Below, piece by piece: positions 31,978-34,688 of a stretch of DNA of 64,000 bases. The translations under genes were made by a program, and so were the position numbers. This DNA comes from a bacterium (GTDB taxonomy: Bacteria > Planctomycetota > Planctomycetia > Planctomycetales > Planctomycetaceae): positions 1 to 64,000 of the forward strand of contig WGMU01000024.1 in the NCBI GenBank assembly GCA_016124895.1. Direction: 5' to 3'. Position 1 is the stretch's first letter. Each line of letters opens with the position of its first letter. The notes beneath the pieces are model-generated. The model was not told the origin of the DNA. It did not search any database and worked only from the letters and a program-made list of their open reading frames with translations.

Positions 31978-32400
31978 ATGCCGCTGAAAGTGTCGGATCC
32001 GGCGTCCGAGCCATCGCTCAACCTGACGCCGATGATCGACATCGTGTTTCTGCTGATCATCTTCTTTATGGTCGGCACTCAGTTCGCCGAGCGGGAGCGG
32101 CAGTTCGATGTCGACCTGCCGACGGTCAGCGACGCTCAGCCGTTGACCAGCCGACCAGACGAGATCGTCGTCAACGTGCTCGGTAACGGAATCGTCAGTG
32201 TCGACGACGAACGACTCACGCTGCCGGAACTGGAACTGAAACTGCGGATCGCTCAGCAGAACTACGCAGACCAGACGGTCGTGCTGCGCGGTTCTGGCCC
32301 CGACCCGTATCAGCAGGTGGTCGATGTGCTGGCAACGTGTCACCGTGCGAAGATCACTCATATCTCACTCGCCAACCGTTTGAGTGACGGCGAGGAGTAA
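31978..32400 (+). CDS. ExbD/TolR-type biopolymer transport protein
   Basis: The 140-residue protein has the ExbD pattern: a short cytoplasmic end, one membrane segment with the proton-path aspartate (LTPMIDIVFLLIIFFMVGTQ), and a periplasmic domain (IVVNVLGNGIVSVDDERL). It would normally form a proton-driven motor with ExbB (or TolQ). No ExbB lies immediately upstream, so the partner is elsewhere or an unrecognised membrane protein substitutes. It is followed after 8 nt by the prenyltransferase-like fusion protein, which has a TonB-like membrane segment, so the two should be cotranscribed. Confidence 0.88.
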   Translation: MPLKVSDPASEPSLNLTPMIDIVFLLIIFFMVGTQFAERERQFDVDLPTVSDAQPLTSRPDEIVVNVLGNGIVSVDDERLTLPELELKLRIAQQNYADQTVVLRGSGPDPYQQVVDVLATCHRAKITHISLANRLSDGEE

Positions 32401-32408
32401 TCGCCAGA

Positions 32409-34688
32409 ATGCTCGCTGCAATCCCACTTGTTGAATGGCTGGCTGAAACGTGCGACACCAGTGTCCGCACCGTCGAGCTGGCTTTGTGGGCTTCGCTGCT
32501 GTCCGGGCTACTGTTTGCGACCGCGAATTTCATTCTGATGATGGTGACCCGCTGGGGCGACAGCGATCCGACAAAGAAAGCGTTCATGTTTTCGGTGCTG
32601 GTGCATCTGTCGCTGGCGTTTGGAGCCGTCGCCGTCACGCCGCCGCAGCCGACTGTCGAAGCGAGCATCGAACCACCGCCGAAAGCGTTTGAGATCCGTG
32701 TCGAGAGCGAAGAACAGGTCGAACTCGAACAGAAAGGCAACACACGCATCTGGGAACAGTTGCCCGAGAATCGTGCCCGGCTGCTCAGTCGCACCGAGCG
32801 GTCACCGCTTGAGTTTCAACCACTGCAGGGGCCGGAGCGGACGGCCGAACCGTTGACGACGCCGGACATCGTTGTCCCTGAGTTGCCGGAACTTCCTGAG
32901 CAGAACGTCGCCCGGCCGGAAGCTCAGCAGATGGCTGACCTGGGCGAAAAGATCGAGTCGGTCGCTCCGCTGAGAATTGACGATACGTCAGCCGAGGCAC
33001 GACCGGACATCAACGTGCCGTCGATGTCGCCGTTGCGTCGCCGGGAACTCAACAGCGGACTCGTTGAAGATGTCACGATCAATCGGACGCCGACTCGCGG
33101 TTCAGTTGACCAGATTGACCCGAAGTTTGATACACAGCGAGAACTGGTGAAGCTCGACACGCCGAGCGATCCGTCGGCGTTTCTGCAGAAGGTCGAGTCT
33201 GGTGATTCCGTCCGACGACTCAGCGGACCGGCACCGGCAGAGTTGCCTGACGAGACTCCGGGGACAAAGACGCCGGAAACGACCGACGATTCGCAGTCGG
33301 GCTCGGTCGGACCGCCGACGTTTACACGGCTGAGGACGCGCACGCCGAAGATGGAAGCACTCGGCGGCGTCGAACGTTTTAAACCGGACCTGACACCGCA
33401 GACGCCGCTGCCGATTCCCGGACCGGCCATCGCGATGCGCGACGGTGTGCCGTCAGCTTTCCCTAAAGACGGCCTGGAACCGAATGCCGTGCGTCCGAAC
33501 TTCGATCCGATCGATGTCAAGGCGACGACGAAAATCCCGCCGACGTACCGGCTACGGAGTCTCGCGAAACGTCAGGAGATCGCTCGCCAGTACGGCGGCA
33601 CTGACGCGTCGGAGAAGGCCGTCGAGGGCAGTCTGCGCTGGCTGGTTCTGCATCAGAGCCCCGATGGCCGCTGGGACGCCGACGGCTTCATGTCGATGTG
33701 CCCGGACGGCGATCGCTGCACGGGACGCTCAGGGTTGGTCAAGATCGACGAGGAAAATGTCGACCGCCAGAACGCCGGAATACACGCCGACGCGGGCGTC
33801 ACCGGGCTGACGATTCTGGCGTTCCTGGGCGCCGGGTACACACACGAGGAAGGCCAGTACGCCGATCAGGTCGACCGGGCGCTGAACTGGCTGGTCCGGC
33901 AGCAGGAGTCCGACGGCTTTCTCGGCGGCGACGCGACTCGTTACGCCCGCATGTACTGCCACGCGATCGCCACTTACGCACTCGCCGAAGCACTCGGCAT
34001 GCAGACGGACCGAACGAACGACGCACGACTGCGGATTCCGCTCGAAAAAGCCATCGCGTACATCATTGACGCTCAGAACCAGACGGACGGCGGCTGGCGA
34101 TACCTCAAAGGCCAGAAGAGCGATATGAGTATGTTCGGCTGGCAGCTCATGGCGCTGAAGAGCGCCGAGATCGCCGGCATCCCGACGCCGCCAAAGACGC
34201 GCGAGCTGATGATTCAGTTTCTGAAGGACCGTAGTCTGGGCAATCGGAAAGGCCTGGCCTCTTACCGTCTACTCGAGCCCGAATTCCCACCGTTGCCGCC
34301 GACGCCGTCCATGACTGCCGAAGCACTGTTCTGCAAGCAGATGCTCGGCATCGCGCGGACGAATCCGCAGAGCCTGGAAGCCGTCGAGTTCCTGCAGGCA
34401 CGACTGCCCAGCCGCCGTCAGGAAGACCTTTACTTCTGGTACTACGGCACGCTGGCGATGTATCAGTATGGCGGCGACGGCTGGCAGGCCTGGAACAACT
34501 CGCTGCGTGACCTGCTGGTCGCCGACCAGCGTCTGAGCACACACGCCATCGGAAGCTGGGACCCAAAAGCTCCCTGGGGACCGTACGGCGGCCGGGTCTT
34601 CTCAACGGCCGTCAGCACGCTCTGCCTCGAAGTCTACTACCGCTTCCTGCCGCTCTATCAGGTCGGGGACGACGTGCTGAATCGGTAG
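32409..34688 (+). CDS. TonB-like/prenyltransferase-squalene-oxidase repeat fusion protein
   Basis: The 759-residue protein has one or two N-terminal membrane segments. The second (KKAFMFSVLVHLSLAFGAVAV) contains Ser62-xxx-His66, the SxxxH arrangement that TonB uses to contact ExbB/ExbD. A proline- and charge-rich periplasmic stretch follows to about residue 380 (VVPELPELPEQ, PLPIPGP). The C-terminal domain (about 395-750) is an alpha/alpha-barrel of prenyltransferase/squalene-oxidase repeats (SLRWLVLHQSPDGRWDADG, ALNWLVRQQESDGFLGGD, AIAYIIDAQNQTDGGWRYLK). It is unlike cytoplasmic squalene-hopene cyclase and should sit in the periplasm. The role is unknown. Coupling to the ExbD motor is inferred from position and motif. 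Confidence 0.78.
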   Translation: MLAAIPLVEWLAETCDTSVRTVELALWASLLSGLLFATANFILMMVTRWGDSDPTKKAFMFSVLVHLSLAFGAVAVTPPQPTVEASIEPPPKAFEIRVESEEQVELEQKGNTRIWEQLPENRARLLSRTERSPLEFQPLQGPERTAEPLTTPDIVVPELPELPEQNVARPEAQQMADLGEKIESVAPLRIDDTSAEARPDINVPSMSPLRRRELNSGLVEDVTINRTPTRGSVDQIDPKFDTQRELVKLDTPSDPSAFLQKVESGDSVRRLSGPAPAELPDETPGTKTPETTDDSQSGSVGPPTFTRLRTRTPKMEALGGVERFKPDLTPQTPLPIPGPAIAMRDGVPSAFPKDGLEPNAVRPNFDPIDVKATTKIPPTYRLRSLAKRQEIARQYGGTDASEKAVEGSLRWLVLHQSPDGRWDADGFMSMCPDGDRCTGRSGLVKIDEENVDRQNAGIHADAGVTGLTILAFLGAGYTHEEGQYADQVDRALNWLVRQQESDGFLGGDATRYARMYCHAIATYALAEALGMQTDRTNDARLRIPLEKAIAYIIDAQNQTDGGWRYLKGQKSDMSMFGWQLMALKSAEIAGIPTPPKTRELMIQFLKDRSLGNRKGLASYRLLEPEFPPLPPTPSMTAEALFCKQMLGIARTNPQSLEAVEFLQARLPSRRQEDLYFWYYGTLAMYQYGGDGWQAWNNSLRDLLVADQRLSTHAIGSWDPKAPWGPYGGRVFSTAVSTLCLEVYYRFLPLYQVGDDVLNR

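Follow-up and report, generated by a model that had tools for sequence, protein, structure and literature searches.

Do an exbD gene and the fusion gene directly behind it encode parts of a proton-driven envelope machine in a planctomycete, where is the ExbB that would complete its motor, and what could a toroidal domain be doing at the end of its arm? Both genes lie in the window, the whole stretch of 64,000 nucleotides that was analysed; it belongs to contig C150, and the genome measures 8.13 Mb and is assembled into 195 contigs. The exbD gene (31978..32400, plus strand) codes for a 140-residue, one-TM proton-channel subunit, which matches PF02472 at E=2.4e-28 (99.2 bits against a Pfam cut-off of 25.4) and is similar to solved TolR and ExbD chains, a TolR chain being the top match (E=5.6e-9). 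Together with its ExbD domain, the product has the N-terminal transmembrane (TM) helix with a proton-binding Asp that marks the family, namely Asp21 within LTPMIDIVFLL (NLTPMIDIVFLL). The stop codon of exbD (32398-32400) is separated by 8 nt from the ATG (32409) of the fusion gene (32409..34688, plus strand), a 759-residue ORF with full-length homologues and an AlphaFold2 model that encodes a candidate toroid-headed force transducer; these coordinates agree with the gene order and spacing given by an earlier, sequence-only reading of this DNA.

The AlphaFold2 model, built from 53 sequences, contains helices at residues 19-46 and 54-75, disorder up to about residue 373, and a helical domain at residues 378-748. 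The first TM helix (32463..32546) is predicted by the model, with a block pLDDT of about 88-92, and by hydropathy, while the second (32568..32633) is an AlphaFold2 helix and putatively docks on the motor. It is in this second hydrophobic segment, as the sequence-only reading had proposed for a membrane helix, that the codons of Ser62 (TCG, 32592-32594) and His66 (CAT, 32604-32606) are located, forming a Ser-x3-His motor contact pair of the TonB/TolA type (32592..32606) that is conserved in aligned homologues. A disordered linker follows (residues 79-375; 32643..33533; pLDDT mostly <50), which is indeed proline-rich, moderately so, with 42 Pro in 297 residues, and which includes, about 17 residues past the TM helix, a possible motor box or D-box-like segment, AFEIRVE (residues 93-99; 32685..32705). 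The protein ends in an alpha/alpha-toroid head (residues 378-748; 33540..34652) with pLDDT mostly >90. All of these features are on the plus strand.

The conservation of the docking pair was assessed in an MAFFT alignment of 40 homologues, including the window protein, that was not selected on the motif and from which the paralogue loci L087 and L097-L100 had been left out beforehand. His66 is present in 40/40 and Ser62 in 39/40 of these sequences, with Ala in L077 (G044), and the next-best TM2 column is only about half conserved, the remainder of the helix being variable. Moreover, 80 named GTDB loci were examined, almost all titled as planctomycetes and one as "bacterium" only. Six of them lack the N-terminus (L124, L144, L145, L151, L163, and L168), and S-x3-H was counted by eye in 73 of the other 74; the relatives' loci and the named loci share organisms and are not independent samples. 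The sole exception, L153 (Pirellula), has A-x3-H, and L241 resembles the same protein; in L177 the pair sits at residue 392. The loss of Ser or His in orthologues, which the sequence-only reading had named as evidence against itself, was thus not found, with His66 in all sequences read and Ser62 in nearly all. As a background count, unrelated ORFs at these loci supply 574 TM-like segments, of which 13 contain S-x3-H, at least four of the 13 looking by eye like other transducers, and an incidental S-x3-H is rejected by the comparison of this frequency with the near-invariant pair in the homologues. An in-frame stop near position 1301 of L161, in the linker region, splits the N-terminal part from the rest of an otherwise normal transducer gene.

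The complete SHLS pattern, Ser-3X-His-6X-Leu-3X-Ser, contacts Ser34, Trp38, and Pro190 of ExbB, and in Ton its Leu and final Ser are kept less strictly, according to the accessible parts of PMC12905483 and PMC12215075. The window protein has Ala73 and Thr77 where Leu and Ser would be expected, and neither column is conserved in the homologues, so only the Ser and His of the pattern are present, as had been noted from the sequence. The AFEIRVE segment matches the motor box loosely and departs from the D-box of E. coli, for which the pattern was taken from the available part of PMC10907165. Position 93 is hydrophobic in 26/30 and position 96 in 24/29 sequences, the 30 rows having been picked from S-x3-H-selected sets.

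The loop between the two TM helices is basic, with Lys at -5 from the Ser in 59/67 and Arg at -14 in 48/67 sequences, counts that come from sets chosen for S-x3-H and carry no weight for the conservation of Ser and His. Read with the positive-inside rule, this loop predicts that TM2 starts in the cytoplasm and ends in the periplasm, Ser preceding His as in TonB and TolA, and that the toroid is periplasmic; the N-terminus of the window protein is likewise predicted to be periplasmic. Five loci were read outside the class, of which one (L237) is a vWA transducer and four (L233-L236) encode proteins of 1149-1365 residues behind exbB and exbD. These four consist, in order, of an N-terminal TM, PD40 propeller repeats, the same TM pair, a linker, and the toroid, an order in which propeller and toroid share one side of the membrane, and L177 also has PD40 repeats N-terminal of the docking helix. 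Two predicted helices, the basic loop, and this propeller layout fit a periplasmic toroid and not the cytoplasmic domain that would have spoken against the sequence-only reading. In addition, the layout of L233-L236 would explain TM1 of the window protein as a remnant left after loss of the propeller.

The head had been described from the sequence as prenyltransferase-like, with its fold to be predicted, and the model does give an alpha/alpha-toroid; the description holds for the fold only, since the domain is more similar to squalene-hopene cyclase, whose cyclase motif it does not have. The Prenyltrans profile reaches E=0.058 and 13.2 bits, below its cut-off of 26.5, and SQHop_cyclase_C reaches E=8.5e-6 and 25.5 bits, just below its cut-off of 26.1, and matches all 53 members of the family alignment at E up to 0.01. 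The nearest solved fold is squalene-hopene cyclase (2sqc_A; Z 26.6, rmsd 2.9, 289 aligned residues), followed by drimenyl diphosphate synthase, epimerases, and GH76-type toroids; toroid enzymes are common among the fold-search matches, and complement TED domains also appear among the Foldseek matches. The head shares with squalene-hopene cyclase and other class II terpene cyclases the alpha/alpha-toroid fold and two QW-like motifs, and differs from squalene-hopene cyclase in being a single, predicted periplasmic toroid domain without DxDD, the catalytic motif of that enzyme. The toroid of the window protein has no DxDD, DxDD[TS] occurs in 0/67 homologues, and class II cyclase identity is rejected for want of this motif. 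Conserved Trp, Tyr, Glu, Asp, Arg, and His residues lie in or around several toroid helix starts, which suggests that they form a candidate ligand- or partner-binding site. The same genome (G000) holds further toroid proteins. One of 1132 residues (L097:8015-11410, on C28) combines a single S-x3-H TM helix and the toroid with an M23 peptidase domain (E=4.3e-12) and has no adjacent motor genes, and another (L098:2740-6663, on C188) starts, by eye, like HSP70 and ends in the same toroid.

The absence of an ExbB gene beside the pair, already noted from the sequence, was borne out for the whole window, in which our own HMM found none, as did the whole-genome PF01618 search for C150. That search returned nine MotA/ExbB matches in the genome, and an exbB homologue elsewhere in it, which the sequence-only reading had suggested looking for, was found on contig C154. 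In a tree of 19 sequences, this orphan ExbB clusters with the operon-linked ExbBs of G024, G033, and G009 (support 95/98), and it is the orthologue of operon ExbBs in relatives; an orphan ExbD without an ExbB is accordingly rejected. Used as a query, the C154 ExbB has a match of at least 50% identity in 36 of the 37 genomes of its own family (f1), the sole exception, G011, being 79% complete. Eleven genomes have a linked ExbB, and in eight of them the operon-linked gene is the top match of this query; the other three are f2 genomes, whose linked ExbBs are divergent, and f3 genomes have only distant relatives of it. The residues that would receive the docking helix, and two Thr of the pore, were counted in 67 ExbB sequences (the query and 66 others, some of them duplicates). 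The docking Ser of TM1 is present in 61/67, with Thr in the other 6, and the TM3 Pro, pore Thr201, and pore Thr235 in 67/67 each, the roles of these Ser, Pro, and Thr residues being those given in the accessible parts of PMC12215075 and PMC12905483. The TM1 Trp is present in only 34/67, with a spacing one residue off the S-x3-W of E. coli. Two minus-strand genes a few genes from the orphan exbB on C154 (L091:2701-4674 and 4715-6733) encode vWA proteins with S-x3-H helices, resembling the vWA transducers of the literature, and the same ExbB may serve several arms.

The homologue search gave matches in 59/59 relative genomes, about thirty of them nearly full-length and from the family f1, while elsewhere many cover the toroid alone. 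Transducer neighbourhoods were examined in 40 relatives, and linkage in the named loci was counted in the 74 of 80 with upstream room. ExbD adjoins the transducer gene in 66/74 (64 identified by script and two more, L132 and L161, by eye), as ExbB does in 38/74 (34 with ExbD and 4 without it); moreover, a gene for a TPR protein precedes exbB in 27/80 named loci and in 11/40 of the relatives' neighbourhoods, its products beginning, by eye, with signal-peptide-like segments. Therefore, the full operon in relatives is TPR-exbB-exbD-toroid protein, and the protein is operon-linked to both ExbB and ExbD, in the window itself to ExbD only. The window's genome carries its TPR orthologue on C15 (38% identity at E=3e-166, against 5e-16 for the next-best match), and with ExbB on C154 the operon is therefore split over three contigs, C15, C154, and C150. 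No adjacent exbD was found at L113, L114, L151, L164, L171, L176, L179, and L186, where exbB may be present, and several of these exceptions are titled Isosphaeraceae or Tautonia. Loci of the Isosphaeraceae type (L075, L080-L084, L164, L171, L176, L179, and L186) have a toroid transducer, often with an adjacent ExbB, and no adjacent ExbD was found there. The layout of L114, a record titled Candidatus Kuenenia stuttgartiensis, is almost the same as that of L113 (Planctomyces sp.), and the title of L114 may be wrong.

Of 294 genomes sampled across the phylum, 82 are matched by a model of the N-terminal ~110 residues. They comprise every one of the 32 from the own family, a further 15 from the class, and 35 from the rest of the phylum, which score weaker and from which the five loci above were read; f3 genomes are not among the matches listed. 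TonB_C occurs in 16/59 relatives and Plug in 22/59, and TolB_N in 0/59, with a control that detects it in E. coli, Caulobacter, and Bacteroides. Of 39 relatives counted by hand (the 40 with a transducer locus read, less G052), 29 are without TonB_C and 26 without both TonB_C and Plug; thus, the machine is not tied to TonB-dependent uptake.

We favour, with a probability of about 0.77, a toroid-headed force transducer of the Ton/Tol type that would be driven by ExbD and the C154 ExbB. Like TonB and TolA, the window protein goes with ExbBD/TolQR-type motor genes and has a Ser-x3-His helix of the same polarity, a disordered linker predicted to be periplasmic, and a C-terminal head; unlike them, it has a toroid in place of their C-terminal domain, two N-terminal helices (19-46 and 54-75) and not a single one, no conserved Leu and second Ser of SHLS, and an operon that adds a TPR protein. 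TonB proper is rejected, since TonB_C (PF03544) is not among the Pfam matches to the protein up to an E-value of 1. Comparative data speak strongly for a motor-coupled, toroid-headed transducer, and from the observed gene order, conservation, orthologues, and predicted topology and fold we infer docking, force, and a partner. ExbD from this operon and ExbB from C154 would make up an inner-membrane motor driven by protons, and TM2 could dock on the ExbB periphery via Ser62 and His66; the long disordered linker would carry the movement into the periplasm, where the toroid head may grip or pull a partner. The exported TPR protein, here encoded on C15, would be the best candidate for this partner or for a bridge to the outer membrane. 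Of the earlier proposal of a proton-driven machine with a periplasmic alpha/alpha domain, the Ser/His conservation, the topology, and the C154 ExbB thus support the main part, and delivery of force is the part that is deduced. Several observations stand against the motor-transducer reading, namely Ala for Ser in L077 and L153, the unconserved Leu and second Ser of SHLS, the extra TM1, the ExbB Trp in only half of the sequences (34/67), the loose motor-box match, the f2 and Isosphaeraceae loci without an adjacent ExbD, and the divergent linked ExbB of three f2 genomes.

Other readings were weighed against these data. The toroid could be a tethered periplasmic enzyme or ligand-binding domain whose docking lets load gate the proton channel, as a sensor or regulator and not an arm. 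This would accommodate the conserved aromatic and polar residues, many of them near toroid helix starts, the frequency of toroid enzymes in the fold search, and the Ser/His-Ser-Trp-Pro signalling proposed for TonB/TolA in the available part of PMC12215075; nevertheless, a long disordered linker and a TPR partner are arm-like rather than sensor-like, and no catalytic motif was identified (no DxDD), which leaves it improbable. A toroid-headed equivalent of TonB, energising the uptake of nutrients by TonB-dependent receptors in the outer membrane, would likewise fit the coupling to ExbBD and the one Plug-domain match in the window's genome, but it is rendered somewhat more improbable still by the lack of TonB_C in the fusion protein, by the 26/39 relatives without TonB_C and Plug, and by the separate TonB_C protein that this genome encodes on C123. 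Least probable by far is an anchored toroid with no link to a motor, for which S-x3-H and the proximity of exbD would be incidental; toroid paralogues without a motor neighbour are common, and one on C24 of this genome has an H-bearing TM helix without the Ser, but the near-invariant pair, set against 13/574 in the background, and the exbB-exbD-transducer operons across the phylum argue against it.

The force-transducer reading can be extended to the outer envelope. The machine resembles Tol-Pal in its proton motor and in the PD40 repeats on transducers of other planctomycete classes and of L177, PD40 being the repeat type of the TolB propeller; it differs in that elsewhere the propeller belongs to the transducer itself, ahead of the TM pair, and is absent in the window protein, with TolB_N in none of the 59 relatives. 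The fused TolB-type propeller elsewhere, together with the absence of TolB, points to a role in envelope maintenance like that of Tol-Pal, which is an attractive speculation. Tentatively, and with the odds against it, a widespread planctomycete machine spanning the envelope might be envisaged, ancestrally made up of a TPR protein, ExbB, ExbD, and one polypeptide with TolB-like PD40 propeller, S-x3-H docking helix, and toroid head, which would replace Tol-Pal in bacteria that lack TolB; in the lineage of the window, the propeller would have been lost, TM1 retained as its vestige, and the operon dispersed.

The heads known from proton-driven envelope arms are those of TonB and TolA, and a vWA head was proposed in 2025. 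As far as the available part of PMC12204202 describes them, these vWA-headed transducers have TPR, tolQ, and tolR neighbours and, likewise, a TM helix with S/H docking, a disordered linker, and a new head, all predicted there; they differ from the window protein in having a vWA head, one TM helix, and a pair of tolR-like genes. No vWA head was found on the window protein by Pfam or in the toroid model, and the word "toroid" does not occur in the available part of PMC12204202. A toroid-headed transducer was not found in the literature searched, the coverage of which stops short of subscription papers and preprints, and ExbB and ExbD are not named in the accessible main text of the Planctopirus essential-gene paper (PMC10632474). 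The toroid head, conserved in much of one planctomycete class and also found in further classes, would add a new class of arm and offers a candidate answer to how planctomycetes, here without TolB and mostly without TonB-dependent receptors, energise the outer membrane; His66 is the residue singled out for mutation. Elsewhere in the window, in which no tRNA gene was found, two minus-strand genes (16950-19226 and 37856-39475) encode proteins with many GGxGxD-like repeats, by eye of the calcium-binding RTX type.
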